From: Anaerolinea thermophila
Lineage (GTDB): Bacteria > Chloroflexota > Anaerolineae > Anaerolineales > Anaerolineaceae
Assembly: GCF_020723905.1 (NCBI RefSeq)
Contig: NZ_DYHZ01000004.1
Coordinates: 303,199-367,198 of the forward strand
DNA length: 64,000 nucleotides
Reading direction: 5' to 3'
Part shown: one piece after another, positions 36,066-42,401 of the stretch
Position numbering within the stretch: position 1 is the first letter of the stretch
Layout of the letters: every line of letters starts with the position of its first letter
Notes under the pieces: generated by a model
What the model was told of the DNA's origin: nothing
The model's database searches: none
The model's input: the letters and a program-made list of their open reading frames with translations, nothing else
Translations under genes and position numbers: made by a program

Positions 36066-36524
36066 TTATGGACCGGTCACGGTGGGCAGGCCCGCCGCCG
36101 ACCAGGCTTTGATGCCGCCGCTCATGCTGGTGACGGCGGTAAACCCGGCCTGCTTGAGAATATCGCGCCCTTCCTGACTGCGGTTGCCCGAACGGCAGTA
36201 CACCACAATTTTCTGATCGCGGGGCAGTTCGTTCACCCGACTTGCCAGTTCTCCCAGCGGGATGAGCGTTGCGCCGGGGATGTGGTACTCATTCCATTCT
36301 TCCGGCTCACGCACATCCAGCACAAAAGCGCCTTCCTCGCGCAGTTGGGCGGCTTCCTGAACGCTGATCTCGGCGGGCAGGGTTGCCTGACGGTCGGGCT
36401 GAGCCAGCGTGGCGATGGCGATGGCGCCAAACCCCACCACCACCCCAAGGATCAACCATGCCCACCAGGGAAACCCCTGCCGCGGGACGGATTTTTTCGT
36501 CTGTACCGGTTTTTTTCGTGTCAT
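36066..36524 (-). CDS. Membrane-anchored rhodanese-like protein
   Basis: A single-domain sulfurtransferase-like protein of 152 residues with one N-terminal membrane helix (about 19-40: FPWWAWLILGVVVGFGAIAIATLA). The rhodanese domain shows ISVQEAAQLREEGAFVLDVREPEEW and the active loop IVVYCRSGNRSQEG with catalytic Cys near 111. It probably faces the outside. The C-terminal SMSGGIKAWSAAGLP matches the fold end. It is convergent with nrfA and divergent from the PrsW-like gene. A sulfur role is inferred from the family only. Confidence 0.9.
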   Translation of the reverse strand: MTRKKPVQTKKSVPRQGFPWWAWLILGVVVGFGAIAIATLAQPDRQATLPAEISVQEAAQLREEGAFVLDVREPEEWNEYHIPGATLIPLGELASRVNELPRDQKIVVYCRSGNRSQEGRDILKQAGFTAVTSMSGGIKAWSAAGLPTVTGP

Positions 36525-36530
36525 TTTTCC

Positions 36531-36568
36531 CTCACACTCACCTTCGAGGCTGATACAATCATTGTATC
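36531..36568. promoter_or_regulatory. Divergent overlapping promoters within a perfect inverted repeat
   Basis: GATACAAT-C-ATTGTATC (36552-36568) is a perfect 17-bp palindrome with a TACAAT -10 box on each strand. On the plus strand, CTCACA (36531-36536) lies 17 bp upstream. On the minus strand, TTGCTT (36589-36584) lies 17 bp upstream. It serves the rhodanese and the PrsW-like genes, and may also be an operator. Confidence 0.6.
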
Positions 36569-36618
36569 TGTTGTTGAGATGCAAAGCAAAGGAAAAGGTT
36601 ACACAACGGGAGGTCTGC

Positions 36619-37326
36619 ATGGCATCCATGGGTGTGATCACGGCGCTGTTGCTGACTGCCACACTGGTATGTGTGGTGCTGGTGGCAGGTCTCAGCCGTG
36701 TGCGTGTGCTGGTGTGGGCGGTGCTGGGGGCGGTGGTACCGCTTTTGCCGATGGCGTACCTGCTCAACCGCTTCATCCGTGCACCTTTCTTTGATTATCT
36801 GGGCACGCAGGCAAACCTGCCGCCGTTTCTGGGCGCCGACCTGCCGTGGTGGTTTCTGGGGTTGTGGTGGCTCTTTCCGCCCTTGCTGGAGGAGTGGGTT
36901 AAGGCGCTGGTGTTGCTCTTCCCCCCTGCCCGCCAGTTGCTTCAGGAGAAGCGTTCCGCCTTTCTGGCGGGAGTTCTGGCGGGGCTGGCGTTTGCGCTGG
37001 GCGAGACTGCCTATGTCCACTGGGCGACCCCCGACCCTTCGGTGGTCATCCTTGCCGGGTATGCCGCTGAGCGGGTTGCCTTCACCCTGCTTCATGCCGC
37101 GCTGACCGCGCGGGTGGCAGTGGGGCTGGCGCAGGGCGGCGGGCAAGCCCTGCGCGTCTTTCTGGGCGCTGCCGGACTGCATGCGCTGGCGGTGCTGGGC
37201 ATTGTCCTCATGCAAATCGGCTGGCTGGAACCGCTGGCAGCGCTGATTGCGCTGTGGGTGGGCGCGCTGATTGCCGCAGGCTGGAGTGCCTGGCTGGCGA
37301 GGCGGTTGTTCCGCGAGACCGTGTGA
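36619..37326 (+). CDS. PrsW-like intramembrane protease family protein
   Basis: The 235-residue product is almost entirely membrane helices (about seven). Family residues are visible: LLEEWVKALVLLF gives the EExxK motif near 91-95, GLAFALGETAYVH supplies the Phe-x-x-x-Glu near 131-135, and further His residues lie in AAERVAFTLLHAALTARVA and AAGLHALAVLG. GGGAGG sits ahead of ATG 36619. The gene lies 107 bp upstream of the alpha-2-macroglobulin gene on the same strand. Protease function is inferred; other CAAX-like membrane proteins look similar. Confidence 0.65.
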   Translation: MASMGVITALLLTATLVCVVLVAGLSRVRVLVWAVLGAVVPLLPMAYLLNRFIRAPFFDYLGTQANLPPFLGADLPWWFLGLWWLFPPLLEEWVKALVLLFPPARQLLQEKRSAFLAGVLAGLAFALGETAYVHWATPDPSVVILAGYAAERVAFTLLHAALTARVAVGLAQGGGQALRVFLGAAGLHALAVLGIVLMQIGWLEPLAALIALWVGALIAAGWSAWLARRLFRETV

Positions 37327-37433: not shown

Positions 37434-40400
37434 ATGTCCCGAAAAAACCTGGTCTGGTGGGTCTTAACCGCTCTGATGGTGATCGGAGCGGTGGTGCTGG
37501 TCGAGCGGGTGGTGTACTATGCCAATCTGCCGGGGCGCCTGCCTCAGCAGGAAATTGTGGTCGTCGGGCAGAATCGTTTCATTCCCGGTACGCAGGCAGC
37601 CCTGCACCTGCAGGTGCGGGATACCGTCAGGGGTAACCCCATTCCCGATGCCGAGGTGAGCCTTGCCCTGCGTCCGCGCGGCGGCGGCAAAGCCCTGACA
37701 CTCTTCAACGGCAGAAGCGATGCCAGCGGCGTGGTGGAAGCCACTTTCAATGTGCCGCTGGTGGATTCCCCCGAGCAAACTCTGCTGATTACCTCCAGAA
37801 GCCCTCAGGGCAGGGATCAACTGGAGCAGTCGGTGACTGTGGAGCGCGAATACCGCATCCTGCTCAGCACCGATAAGCCCCTTTACCAGCCCGGGCAGGT
37901 GATTTATCTGCGGGCGCTCGTGCTGGATGCCTTTGATCTGCGCCCGGCAGTGGCGCGCGAAATGACCCTGACCATTGCCGATGGCAAGGGCAACAAGGTC
38001 TTCCGCAAGACCCTGACCACCTCATCCTACGGCGCGGCATGGACGGAGTTTCAACTGGCAAATGAGGTCAACACCGGCGAGTACAAAATTACCGCTCAGA
38101 TGGGCAACACCATCAGCGAGAAGACCGTGCGTGTGGAGCGCTACGTCCTGCCAAAGTTCAAAGTGGAGATGCAGACGGAGCGGGCGTACTACCAGCCCGG
38201 TCAGCGGGTCAGCGGGACGTTGACGGCGCGGTATTTCTTTGGAAAACCCGTCTCCGGCGGCGAGGTGCGCCTGGAAGGCTACACTTTCGACGTTCAGCGC
38301 AACACCGTCTTCACCCTGGAGGGCGTCACCGATGACCAGGGACAGTACGCCTTTGAGTTTGACCTGCCCGCTTACCTGACCGGAAGCGAGTTCGAGGGCG
38401 GCATGGCGCGCTTCTACCTGCAGGTTACCGTCACCGATGGAGCGCGTCACGCCGAGACTGCCAGCCTCTCCCTGCCGGTTAGCGCCAGCGGGCTGGTGGT
38501 GGACATGGTTCCCGAGGGCGGTTTTGTGCGCGCCGGTCTGGAAAACATCTTTTACCTGTTTACCCGCTATCCCGACGGCACCCCTGCTCAGGCGACCGTG
38601 CAGGTGACCTTTACCGACAGCAACACCACCTTCACCGTCCAGACCGATGCCTACGGGCTGGGCGAGGTGCGCGTCATTCCCCCGCATCCGTATGTGTACG
38701 TGACCCTGCAGGCGCAGGATACCCGCGGCGCGACCGCTTACCGCGAGGTGGGCTTTGAGGGCGAGTGGAGCGGTGAGAGCATCCTCCTGCGCCCGGACAA
38801 GCCCGTCTATCGGGTGGGCGAGACCATGAATTTGAGCGTCTTCAGCACGCAGGCGCAGGGCACGGTCTATCTGGATATTGTGCGCGGCGGGCAGACCATC
38901 AGCACGCGCAGTGTGCAGATTGAGAGCGGGCGCGCCGGGGTGGCGGTGGATCTCTCCGCCGATATGTACGGCACGCTGGAAGTGCATGCTTACAGGATTC
39001 AGCCCTCCGGAGCCATCACCCGCGATACCCGTCTGGTGGTGGTGGATCCCGCCAGTGACCTGAACCTTGCCATCCAGCCCGGGAAGGATACCTACCGACC
39101 CGGCGAGGATGCGCAACTGGATGTTCAGGTAAGCGGTGCCGATGGCGCAGGGGTTGCCGCGGCGCTGGGCATTGCCGTGGTGGACGAATCGGTGTTTGCA
39201 CTTGCCGAGCAAGACCCCGGCTTTGCCCGCCTGTACTTCCTGCTAGAGTCCGAAATCCTCACCCCGCGCTACGACCTGCACGGCTACACCCTGCCCGACC
39301 TGGCGTACAGCCAGCGGTTTGAGCAGGTTTCGCCGACCCTGCGCCAGGACGTGGAGCGGGCGGCGCGGGCTTCACTGGCTGAGGCGGTGCGCGTGGGCGG
39401 CAAGAGCGCCTTCACTCTGGTGGCATCCTCGCGCCAGCAGAATCTCAACCGCGCGGCGCAATTGCAGGCAGCCTTCTTTAACCGATTGAGCAGGGTGATC
39501 TTCCCCGTCTTCCTGCTCGCCGCCGCGGGGGTGGTCTTTGGCGTGACCTGTGCGCTGGCGCAGGAGAAACGCTTCTGGCGCAGTCTCTTTACCGCGGCGG
39601 GCATTCTGCTGGGTCTGTTCCTGCTGATCATGGTCATCCCCTGGGGAGGGGCTTTCTGGAGCCCTTCGCCCGGCGAGTCGCTGATGCGCTTTCTGGAGTT
39701 CCTCTTCTCCGATCTGGAAATGGGGCTTCTCCTCATCCTGTTGCTGGGCGGGGTGGGGATCTTGGGAATGGCAGGCGTTGCCATCCGCCACCGCAACTGG
39801 ACGCTGGGTGGTACAATCCTGCTCACCGCGCTGACCATTCTGTCCTTCCTGGGATCCCTCATCGCGGTGCGTTTCAGCAATCGCATTCCCTCCGATGCCT
39901 GGCTCATTGCCGCGCTGATTGCCTTCCTGTTGATGATCTTCAGCCAGTGGGTGCGCGTGGCAGGCTTCCTCTGGGAGCGCGCCTTTGTGCCGGCTCTGTT
40001 TGGGCTGGCGCTGGCGCTTTCTCTCACCGTTGGGTGGGTGCCTCTGGGCGTGCTCCTGGCAGGTGGTGCGGCGATGGCGCCGGCGCCCGCGGCGGAAGAT
40101 TTTGCCGGTCCCATGCGCCGGGAGGCGCTGGGGGCTGTGCCGATGCTGGCGCCCCAGGCTACGGCGGTTCCTTCCATGGTGGTGGAGGAAAAAGCCGCTG
40201 GCGGGGAAAGTGCTCAGACCGCTCAGCAAGCCCCGCGTCTGCGCCAGTACTTCCCCGAAACCATGCTGTGGATTCCCGATGCGGTTACCGACTCCAGCGG
40301 ATTCCTGCGCCTCAACTTCCCCGTCGCCGACAGCATCACCACGTGGCGGATCACCGCGCTGGCATCCAGCGCCGATGGCAGGCTGGGCAGTGTGGATGCC

Positions 40401-42401
40401 CCCCTGCGTGTCTTCCAGGATTTCTTCATTGACCTCGATCTGCCGCTGGCACTGACGGTGGGCGATGAGATTGCCGTGCCGGTGGGTGTGTACAACTATC
40501 TGCCCGAACCGCAAACCGTGCGTCTGGTGCTGGAACCAGCTGGGTGGTTTGACCTGCTGGATGAGCCGGAAAAAAGCATGACCATTGGCGCCAACGAGGT
40601 CAGCGTGGCGTACTTCCGCATCCGCGCCAGAGATTTTGGCTATCAACCCTTCAAAGTGACGGCTTACGGCTCACGTCTCTCCGATGCCATCCTCAAATCG
40701 GTGCAGGTTTATCCCGATGGCAAACCCATCCGCCTGAGCGCGTCCGATCGTCTCGAGGCGGACAAGCCCATCCGGCAGACTTTCTTCTTCCCGCCCGAAG
40801 CCATCGCCGGCACGCAGAAGGTGCTGGTCAAGGTTTATCCGGGTGTGTTCAGTCAGGTGGTGGAAGGGCTGGATAGTCTCCTGCGCATGCCGTTTGGGTG
40901 CTTTGAGCAGACTTCTTCCATTACCTACCCCAACGTGCTGGCGCTGGATTACCTGCGCACCTCCGGGCAAACCGCTCCCGAAGTGGAATTGAAAGCCGAG
41001 GAATACATCAATCTGGGCTATCAGCGCCTGACCACGTTTGAGGTGGCGGGTGGCGGCTTCTCGCTGTTTGGCAACCCGCCTGCTGATCGCATGCTGACTG
41101 CCTACGGCTTGCAGGAATTTGCCGACATGGCGCGCGTTCATCCGGTGGATGATGCCCTGGTGCGCCGCGCCGCTGAGTGGCTGATGAGCCAGCAGTCCGG
41201 CGATGGCTCGTGGGAGAACGACCGCGGTCTGGTGCATGAAAACACCTGGCAGTCGTTGGGCAATGACCGCCTGCCGGTGACCGGTTACGTGGTGTGGAGT
41301 TTGATTGACGCCGGATTTGAGCGCGAAACCGCCGTTCAGAAAGGGCTGGCGTACCTGCGCGATCACCTCGGCGAGGCGAAAGACCCCTACGTGCTGGGCC
41401 TGGTTGCCAATGCGCTGGTCTCCGCCGACCGCACGCAGGGTGAGGGCACCGGCACTGCTACCCGCGCCGCGCTGGATGCGCTGGCGGCGCAGGCGCAACG
41501 CTCCGGTGGGCAGGTCTTCTGGCAGAGTCAGGTTGCCACGTTTACCGGCGCAGAAGGGCAGACCGGCAGTATTGAGACTACGGCGCTGGTGGCGCTGGCA
41601 ATGCTGCGCGCGCAGGAATACCCCGACCTGACCAGCGGCGCGCTGGCATATCTGATTGCGCAAAAGGATTCCTTTGGCACCTGGCACAGCACGCAAGCCA
41701 CCGTGCTCTCGCTCAAAGCCCTGCTGGAAGCCATGCGCACGGGCGGCGATCGGGTGGATGCACGCGTCACCATCACCCTCAACGGCGGGCAGGTACGCAC
41801 CCTGCAGGTGACGCAGGACAACTTCGACGTGGTGCAGATGGTGACGTTTGAGGATGTGCCCCTTGGGCGCGAAAATGCAGTGGACATCCGCGTGGAAGGG
41901 CAGGGCAACCTGATGGCGCAGGTGGTGGGCAGTTACTATCTGCCGTGGAGCGCGATGAGCCGCTACCCTGATCTCTTCCCGGTGGGTGAAGGGCTGGATT
42001 TACAGGTGAGTTACGACCGCACCGAGTTAAGCGTGGATGACACCGTCACCGTGCAGGTTTCTGCCACCCTCCAGCCTGCCGGCGCACGTGCCGAAGCGGT
42101 GATGCTCGACCTGGGCATTCCCCCCGGCTTCAGCGTGATGACCGAAGACCTGGACGCGCTGGTGACGCGCTACGGCGATGTACTGCCTTCCGAGACGCGC
42201 CTGGAACGCTATGAACTCACCGGTCGGCAGGTGCTGGTGTACCTTACCGGCATGAAGGGCGGCGAACCCTTCACCTTCAGTTACCGCCTGCGGGCGCGCT
42301 TCCCCCTGCGGGCGCAGGCGCCCTCAGCGCTGGCATATGATTACTACAACCCGCAACAACAGGGCGAACTGCCGCCGCAGTTGCTGGTGGTCAACCCGTA
42401 A
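37434..42401 (+). CDS. Alpha-2-macroglobulin family protein with a six-helix membrane insert
   Basis: A 1,655-residue surface protein of the A2M/complement-like protease-trap family. An N-terminal membrane anchor (about 7-25) is followed by macroglobulin-type beta domains to about 680, with repeated YQPGQ and YRPGE starts. Six hydrophobic helices then occupy about 690-880. The typical A2M segment RLRQYFPETMLWIPDAVTDSSG resumes near 930. The thioester motif PFGCFEQ has Cys1156 and Gln1159, followed by the alpha-alpha-barrel thioester domain and the C-terminal receptor-like domain. Bacterial A2Ms trap foreign proteases through a bait region. Here the membrane block stands about where the bait would be. 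GGAGGAGA precedes ATG 37434. Confidence 0.93.
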   Translation: MSRKNLVWWVLTALMVIGAVVLVERVVYYANLPGRLPQQEIVVVGQNRFIPGTQAALHLQVRDTVRGNPIPDAEVSLALRPRGGGKALTLFNGRSDASGVVEATFNVPLVDSPEQTLLITSRSPQGRDQLEQSVTVEREYRILLSTDKPLYQPGQVIYLRALVLDAFDLRPAVAREMTLTIADGKGNKVFRKTLTTSSYGAAWTEFQLANEVNTGEYKITAQMGNTISEKTVRVERYVLPKFKVEMQTERAYYQPGQRVSGTLTARYFFGKPVSGGEVRLEGYTFDVQRNTVFTLEGVTDDQGQYAFEFDLPAYLTGSEFEGGMARFYLQVTVTDGARHAETASLSLPVSASGLVVDMVPEGGFVRAGLENIFYLFTRYPDGTPAQATVQVTFTDSNTTFTVQTDAYGLGEVRVIPPHPYVYVTLQAQDTRGATAYREVGFEGEWSGESILLRPDKPVYRVGETMNLSVFSTQAQGTVYLDIVRGGQTISTRSVQIESGRAGVAVDLSADMYGTLEVHAYRIQPSGAITRDTRLVVVDPASDLNLAIQPGKDTYRPGEDAQLDVQVSGADGAGVAAALGIAVVDESVFALAEQDPGFARLYFLLESEILTPRYDLHGYTLPDLAYSQRFEQVSPTLRQDVERAARASLAEAVRVGGKSAFTLVASSRQQNLNRAAQLQAAFFNRLSRVIFPVFLLAAAGVVFGVTCALAQEKRFWRSLFTAAGILLGLFLLIMVIPWGGAFWSPSPGESLMRFLEFLFSDLEMGLLLILLLGGVGILGMAGVAIRHRNWTLGGTILLTALTILSFLGSLIAVRFSNRIPSDAWLIAALIAFLLMIFSQWVRVAGFLWERAFVPALFGLALALSLTVGWVPLGVLLAGGAAMAPAPAAEDFAGPMRREALGAVPMLAPQATAVPSMVVEEKAAGGESAQTAQQAPRLRQYFPETMLWIPDAVTDSSGFLRLNFPVADSITTWRITALASSADGRLGSVDAPLRVFQDFFIDLDLPLALTVGDEIAVPVGVYNYLPEPQTVRLVLEPAGWFDLLDEPEKSMTIGANEVSVAYFRIRARDFGYQPFKVTAYGSRLSDAILKSVQVYPDGKPIRLSASDRLEADKPIRQTFFFPPEAIAGTQKVLVKVYPGVFSQVVEGLDSLLRMPFGCFEQTSSITYPNVLALDYLRTSGQTAPEVELKAEEYINLGYQRLTTFEVAGGGFSLFGNPPADRMLTAYGLQEFADMARVHPVDDALVRRAAEWLMSQQSGDGSWENDRGLVHENTWQSLGNDRLPVTGYVVWSLIDAGFERETAVQKGLAYLRDHLGEAKDPYVLGLVANALVSADRTQGEGTGTATRAALDALAAQAQRSGGQVFWQSQVATFTGAEGQTGSIETTALVALAMLRAQEYPDLTSGALAYLIAQKDSFGTWHSTQATVLSLKALLEAMRTGGDRVDARVTITLNGGQVRTLQVTQDNFDVVQMVTFEDVPLGRENAVDIRVEGQGNLMAQVVGSYYLPWSAMSRYPDLFPVGEGLDLQVSYDRTELSVDDTVTVQVSATLQPAGARAEAVMLDLGIPPGFSVMTEDLDALVTRYGDVLPSETRLERYELTGRQVLVYLTGMKGGEPFTFSYRLRARFPLRAQAPSALAYDYYNPQQQGELPPQLLVVNP

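Follow-up and report, generated by a model that had tools for sequence, protein, structure and literature searches.

Does a bacterial alpha-2-macroglobulin (A2M) that appears to carry six membrane helices next to its bait region still work as a protease trap, and what would the helices do there? The question is raised by a gene of Anaerolinea thermophila (Chloroflexota; Anaerolineae), found in a stretch of 64,000 nucleotides of contig NZ_DYHZ01000004.1, which is referred to here as the window. An earlier note, made from the letters of this DNA, had described the encoded protein as an N-terminal anchor and macroglobulin (MG) domains followed by six clear hydrophobic helices and then by a full A2M core with the thioester motif PFGCFEQ at Cys1156. 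The protein was analysed with respect to domain content, predicted structure and relatives, and the possible roles of the helices were weighed against one another.

Domain architecture of the protein

The reading frame is open from an ATG at 37434 to a stop codon ending at 42401 and encodes 1655 amino acids (Table 1). Pfam domains follow one another in the order MG2 (1e-27), MG3 (5e-7), A2M_BRD, A2M, TED and A2M_recep. Hydrophobic segments were located by the Kyte-Doolittle (KD) scale with a 19-residue window and a score above 2.0, and together with the domain order they agree with the layout that had been described, while the TED match and the motif itself confirm the thioester core. Judged by its sequence, the protein is a complete member of the A2M superfamily.

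Since the nearest solved proteins are CD109 (1.8e-77), human A2M (4.3e-61), TEP1 (2.1e-56), C3 (3.6e-42) and A2ML1, the domain set can be called animal-like. An AlphaFold model of residues 1-1130 (mean pLDDT 83.8) shared 719-731 aligned residues with C5b8, CD109, C5b-6 and A2ML1, at Z 34-35; C3b was matched at Z 33, and A2M is among the fold matches as well. Residues 36-39 of the model align to residues 282-291 of the bacterial ECAM and SaA2M chains (4ziq, 4u48, 4u4j, 5a42), so the preceding N-terminal part, in which ECAM-type proteins have two extra MG domains, seems to be missing here.

Table 1. Coordinates of the gene and of the features of its product (residues of the protein; positions in the window)
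Feature	Residues	Positions	Strand	Basis
A2M-superfamily protein with six-helix membrane domain	1655 aa	37434..42401	+	ORF, Pfam
N-terminal membrane anchor	5-23	37446..37502	+	KD 2.32; model helix 2-30
A2M_BRD Pfam domain	452-590	38787..39203	+	Pfam 1e-17
Six-helix membrane domain, predicted to occupy the anaphylatoxin position of complement	667-881	39432..40076	+	AlphaFold helices; C5 beta chain aligns to 38-669
Transmembrane segment 1	688-706	39495..39551	+	KD
Transmembrane segment 2	717-735	39582..39638	+	KD
Transmembrane segment 3	766-784	39729..39785	+	KD
Transmembrane segment 4	794-812	39813..39869	+	KD
Transmembrane segment 5	822-840	39897..39953	+	KD
Transmembrane segment 6	858-876	40005..40061	+	KD
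Bait-like disordered loop (~53 residues)	882-934	40077..40235	+	pLDDT <50 over 879-932; mean column identity 0.39
Alpha'NT plug motif RLRQYFPET (R937, F940)	935-943	40236..40262	+	Conservation in 57 rows; plug as in PMC9352918
A2M Pfam domain	943-1032	40260..40529	+	Pfam 3.7e-23
Thioester domain TED (PF07678)	1138-1431	40845..41726	+	Pfam 6.1e-48
Thioester motif PFGCFEQ, Cys1156	1153-1159	40890..40910	+	Sequence; TGA at this Cys in 22 relatives
Receptor-binding domain A2M_recep	1553-1643	42090..42362	+	Pfam 8.5e-11

Position of the six helices

An AlphaFold model had been proposed in the earlier note as a check, and six long helices are indeed seen in it between residues 667 and 881. With relatives included in the prediction, these helices span 667-710, 714-734, 761-785, 789-815, 821-847 and 851-881, with a short one at 746-757, and the pLDDT of the block is mostly 87-98 in a 401-residue model and 75-93 in the 1130-residue model. 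In the domain order of complement C5, the beta-chain part continues into the anaphylatoxin domain. By fold comparison, the C5 beta chain (7ad7, 6rqj) aligns to model residues 38-669 and the helix domain starts at 667. No Pfam match falls within residues 690-882; the anaphylatoxin domain was not found there and the six helices stand instead. The accessible part of PMC9352918 places the anaphylatoxin domain before the plug, and describes the plug, in which R732 and F735 are conserved, as following the bait on its C-terminal side and as threaded through a channel formed by MG2, MG3 and the linker.

The corresponding positions in the alignment of 57 rows are R937, which is invariant, and F940, which is at least 90% conserved. 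As the disordered loop and these two plug residues come after helix 6, the parts of the trigger appear to be retained, with the helices directly ahead of the bait. The earlier note had put the helices where the bait region should be. Six helices do lie near that point, but according to the model they are not the bait and occupy the slot of the C5 anaphylatoxin domain; since a bait-like loop persists past helix 6, they adjoin the bait rather than replace it.

Conservation among relatives and membrane topology

In a search of 61 genomes (the window's own included), full-length orthologues with 52-59% identity were found in G001, G002, G008, G028, G033 and G045. Genome G003 holds a C-terminal piece of the gene only, and the orthologue of G025 (L033:6316-11318) is split over two frames that overlap, the break lying close to the border between helix 6 and the bait. 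In G004, which belongs to the same genus, the gene itself is absent and not just the insert, the matches there being distant paralogs of ~2000 aa (best E 1.5e-11). Presence among the 61 genomes is patchy. A wider set of 79 loci was taken from genome contigs of Chloroflexota and other phyla, these being the best 80 of 381 confirmed stretches, and 66 of 396 genomes of the class matched at E ≤ 1e-80, with paralogs and fragments counted.

A tree of 96 rows was calculated by a quick search without bootstrap, the insert columns being excluded and identical duplicates and short pieces dropped. A Chloroflexota clade comprises 59 of these rows (SH-aLRT 97 on this quick tree). Six helices lie at the same place in 57 of them, and the other two, the nested L081 and L084, have two helices. 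At a KD threshold of 1.5, six segments are reached in 55 of the 57 six-helix rows, the sixth being weaker in L056 and L062 (1.31 and 1.47), and for this reason the pattern is not chance. The earlier note had asked whether the insert is conserved and always between the same domains, and had named insert-free close relatives or an odd number of helices as findings that would speak against its reading. The insert holds its one position throughout, no row of the clade is helix-free, and the numbers found are six and two.

Three rows beyond the clade share the six segments, namely L069 (Omnitrophota), L105 (Verrucomicrobiales) and L115 (Thermoanaerobaculaceae); on profile comparison with the clade, the linker and helix 1 alone align (97%). 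Helix-free proteins account for 32 rows of the tree. Two of these rows, L190 and L191, come from the same class as the window gene, and a search of both for the thioester motif likewise gave nothing. The number of helices must have changed at least five times on the tree, a count for which L056 and L062 were set to six and L187 and L188, with one segment at the KD threshold and two read by eye, were set to two. A T2SSG (pseudopilin-like) domain was detected (E ≤ 0.01) in the slot of 22 of 30 helix-free relatives from other phyla (L085, L087-L104, L106-L114, L117, L118), and so, by its domain content, the A2M slot ahead of the bait accepts differing domains.

The charges of the loops bear on the orientation of the helices. 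Lys plus Arg residues average 3.36, 2.95 and 2.26 in loops 1-2, 3-4 and 5-6, against 0.86 and 0.78 in loops 2-3 and 4-5, and the former group is the richer one in all 58 six-segment rows tested (55 rows of the clade and the three from outside it). Because the pattern holds in every row, the N-terminal half and the thioester half most likely both lie outside by the positive-inside rule, as had been proposed in the earlier note from the even number of helices.

A proposed membrane-pinned trigger

Over 53 rows, mean column identity is 0.39 in the helix domain, 0.39 in the bait loop, 0.37 in the N-terminal anchor and 0.55-0.76 in the MG regions. Mainly polar positions of the helix domain are found ahead of helix 1, within its loops or at the ends of helices. 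The charged residues that are conserved belong to loops; one such motif, [RK][RK][DE] at 786-788, reads HRN in the window protein. Among 411 Foldseek matches to the PDB at E ≤ 10, none reached E ≤ 0.001, and VIA gave Z values up to 7.7, a figure within the chance range for helical matches that leaves room for a known fold. Given that the helices evolve as fast as the N-terminal anchor and matched no solved fold, a structural pin is preferred to an enzyme or channel, and the helix domain most likely fastens the trigger to the membrane. With a probability of about 0.6, the protein would be an A2M-superfamily trap for proteases, exposed at the cell surface, armed with a thioester and held to the membrane beside its trigger.

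In the native state of such a trap, the plug with R937 and F940 would thread the channel between MG2 and MG3, like in animal A2M. A protease attacking the cell surface would cut the chain in the loop that follows helix 6, ahead of the plug, upon which the plug would retract, the C-terminal half would rearrange and the thioester of Cys1156 and Gln1159 would be exposed and would bond the attacking protease. The six helices would remain with the N-terminal half and keep the start of the bait at the membrane, so that the trap is set off by cuts at the membrane surface and, once fired, leaves its N-terminal half on the cell. Sister proteins join this trigger to an anti-sigma domain on the cytosolic side, and in them it is probably read out as a signal.

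Anti-sigma paralogs

These sister proteins were found in at least 15 of the 396 genomes of the class and carry a zf-HC2-type finger at the N-terminus, followed by the anchor and by an A2M module of the same kind. The figure is a lower bound, since a single query was used at E ≤ 1e-100; some rows show stops where the query overruns the gene start. The paralogs are L169, L179-L184, L189, L211 and L216-L222, of which L184 and L222 represent one genome, giving 15 distinct loci. The finger was recognized by Pfam in all six that were scanned (L182, L183, L189, L211, L216 and L169) and in the rest by alignment to L183. An ECF sigma gene is present in 14 of the 15 loci, within ~240 nt in 13 of them and at ~2.4 kb in L182; the remaining locus without one in view is L217, which starts 400 nt upstream. 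None of 40 trap-form control loci, among them fragments and loci whose flanks differ in length, has an ECF sigma gene. All 13 finger paralogs that could be read through the slot have six helices; in the other two the contig ends too early, in one case after the fifth helix. The TED with GCFEQ is kept in two of the 15 (G150 and G368), and no thioester motif was seen in the sequence read of the other 13, two of these being cut by contig ends. From this gene content, the finger-fused module probably serves as a receptor in the paralogs.

Alternative explanations

A receptor role was considered for the window protein as well, the earlier note having suggested that the helices might turn the trap into one. 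A bait cut on the outside would then shift the six helices and signal to a cytosolic partner, the thioester half being secondary. The paralogs lend substance to the suggestion, with their finger fused to the module, the adjoining sigma gene and the six helices kept where the thioester motif is not seen. The last point also weighs against the pinned trap, and because the helices are kept in such paralogs a signalling role fits them equally well. A pin, moreover, needs fewer than six helices, as L081 and L084 manage with two, and no conserved gene partner was found. For the window protein itself, however, zf-HC2 is not among the Pfam matches at E ≤ 1, no other cytosolic domain was matched and the cytosolic loops are short. 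Nor does a sigma gene adjoin its gene, a single weak ECF-like match (29% identity, E 1.5e-6) lying ~14 kb away. The suggestion thus stands for the paralogs, while a receptor role of the window protein is unlikely.

More doubtful still is internal processing, in which helix 6 would act like a signal peptide and the chain would be cut after it to give two chains; in relatives, signal peptidase II may possibly cut at an internal lipobox and leave the C-terminal chain lipid-anchored. Helix 6 does run from inside to outside, the orientation of a signal peptide. Of the 65 rows whose slot includes a hydrophobic segment, 29 have a Cys past the last helix, and in 24 it is preceded by a lipobox-like triplet (LTGC in 10), a feature for which the pinned trap has no need. 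The window protein, in contrast, has no Cys past helix 6, and in many rows a sizeable stretch of sequence separates the Cys from helix 6; being related, the rows do not count independently. Lipobox-like motifs with Cys were noted in L056, L058, L079, L156, L179, L187, L188 and others. That the helix domain is a transporter, channel or enzyme fused to the trap is improbable: it is modelled with high confidence, but it matched no PDB structure at the thresholds given above, evolves fast, holds no conserved polar residues inside its helices and is reduced to two helices in L081 and L084. That a membrane gene and an A2M gene were fused by chance or joined in assembly can practically be dismissed, as the relatives refute it; the same architecture recurs in the 57 rows from separate records, among them Longilinea arvoryzae KOME-1 (L041) and the one-contig genome G353. 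The pinned trap is preferred over all of these.

Relatives with an in-frame TGA at the thioester cysteine

The window protein has Cys at position 1156, and in a number of relatives the codon at this place is TGA. Of the 79 loci (best 80 of 381 stretches), 11 have a single TGA exactly at the thioester Cys, with the frame open beyond it. Exactly one in-frame stop in the matched stretch was seen in 20 of the class genomes, and it was always TGA and always at this place. As nine of these 20 proteins are identical to loci already counted, the distinct loci number 22 (L053, L058-L063, L066-L068, L116, L160, L161, L167, L168, L173-L178 and L185).

A SECIS-like hairpin of 6 bp, with a 3-nt loop starting with G, lies 17 nt after the TGA in all 22. 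Six pairs at this place were found in none of the 33 Cys genes (the rows of the clade with the motif; the partial Cys loci L070, L072, L073, L074, L077 and L080 lie outside this count and outside the tree), in which one pair was found in 11, two in 11, three in six, four in four and five in one. The outermost pair of the hairpin is T-A in 14 loci, G-T in seven and A-T in one. The codons ACG TCG nnG ACG are fixed in the 22 loci, and the first of them alters the residue, which is Thr there as against Ser in 31 of the 33 Cys genes. For bacterial SECIS elements, a loop of 3-9 nt, a stem of 4-16 bp, a G within the first two loop bases, a spacing of 16-37 nt and a minimum free energy of -7.5 kcal/mol or lower are given in the accessible text of PMC13188914. 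All 22 hairpins fall within the limits for loop, stem, G and spacing; the 17-nt hairpin alone has -4.8 to -7.3 kcal/mol, and 51-nt stretches reach -7.5 in 21 of 22, with varied folds.

In the genomes of the 22 loci, SelB over the cut-off was detected in 19 and a strong tRNA-Sec in 18, at least one of them in 20 and both in 17. The tRNA was counted at E ≤ 1e-10, as weak matches occur in all 47 genomes and in all 14 controls, five controls being over the Rfam cut-off. Neither component was detected by these measures in G061 and G069; G061 has a split SelB-like match, and the weak tRNA matches of the two (50 and 48 bits) were left uncounted. Many Cys genomes, the window's own included, also hold the machinery, and its presence therefore does not separate the two forms. 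A single selenocysteine clade was rejected on the quick tree (AU p 2e-37), on which the two residues were exchanged at least five times. The in-frame TGA in the 22 loci is probably selenocysteine, as its place at the thioester Cys and the hairpin suggest. Since the thioester Cys would then be selenocysteine, a selenoester (Sec-Gln) possibly replaces the thioester in these relatives.

Comparison with known systems

Animal A2M, CD109 and TEP1 share with the window protein the MG ring, a bait or bait-like loop, plug, TED with CxEQ and receptor domain and are its best sequence matches in the PDB, but they are not known to have a transmembrane domain at the bait. The membrane attachment of CD109 is a GPI anchor at the C-terminus. 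In complement C3, C4 and C5 an extra domain likewise lies between the beta-chain part with the linker and the cleaved segment (C5b Z 35, C3b Z 33). Cleavage of complement frees this domain as a soluble anaphylatoxin, whereas the six membrane helices would stay on the cell. The bacterial branch is built like animal complement, with a membrane domain at the anaphylatoxin's place in C5. ECAM and SaA2M are described in the accessible text of PMC4498604 as bacterial, anchored in the inner membrane and provided with a CxEQ thioester, and a joint function with Pbp1C is proposed. The window protein is likewise bacterial, membrane-anchored and of the CxEQ type; ECAM and SaA2M differ in having ten MG domains and no helices at the bait, while its own domain set is animal-like. 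A2M genes are reported from Patescibacteria in PMC9793634, in the accessible part of which nothing is said on A2M of Chloroflexota.

The TGA relatives share with bacterial selenoproteins the in-frame TGA at a Cys position, the SECIS-like hairpin and, in most genomes, SelB and tRNA-Sec. Most known prokaryotic selenoprotein families are thought to act in redox reactions (accessible text of PMC9312934), in contrast to the acyl-bond Cys of a trap. The selenoester, if true, would put genetically encoded selenium to a new use and extend it from redox to acyl-transfer chemistry. The paralogs resemble zf-HC2 ECF anti-sigma factors in the cytosolic finger, the single helix, the outer part and the adjoining ECF gene; they differ in the make-up of that outer part, which consists of an A2M module including a bait and another six helices.

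On balance we favour the view that these proteins form a membrane-embedded, complement-like A2M branch of the Anaerolineae, with a selenoester warhead in many members and a six-helix trigger that has been recruited as the outer sensor of ECF anti-sigma factors. If so, a bait cut would either fire a covalent trap or switch genes. Literature searches by title, abstract and passage, with subscription journals mostly outside their scope, returned no selenocysteine A2M, no A2M anti-sigma factor and no A2M with helices at the bait; within this literature, the selenoester and the anti-sigma use would, if true, both be firsts for the A2M superfamily. The natural variants, with selenium or sulfur in the warhead, two or six helices, and with or without TED or anti-sigma domain, make the trigger step of A2M testable.

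Genomic neighbourhood

A2M genes of the ECAM type are linked to a gene for Pbp1C. Among the neighbouring ORFs, none was identified by Pfam as Pbp1C beside the window gene; the neighbours are an ORF without Pfam match, a glycosyl hydrolase of family 2 (LacZ type), a G3P acyltransferase and a glycosyltransferase. The upstream ORF at 36415-37326 (303 aa) is hydrophobic and carries an EEW motif, which we take to be like that of PrsW-type proteases; a PrsW-like reading of the ORF was dropped, as there is no Pfam match. A second, distant A2M (L223, G000:C5) is present in the genome of the window as an open frame of 1995 aa; the 1863 aa of it that were read show one hydrophobic segment and no CxEQ motif.

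When the ORFs of the window around the gene were compared with 44 relative loci, one ORF was matched, by a single weak match in L046, and as far as gene order tells no operon partner was found. Among the relative loci themselves, the sole neighbour recurring at five or more loci is one ORF, which is present at five and is presumably nucleotide-sugar dehydrogenase-like.
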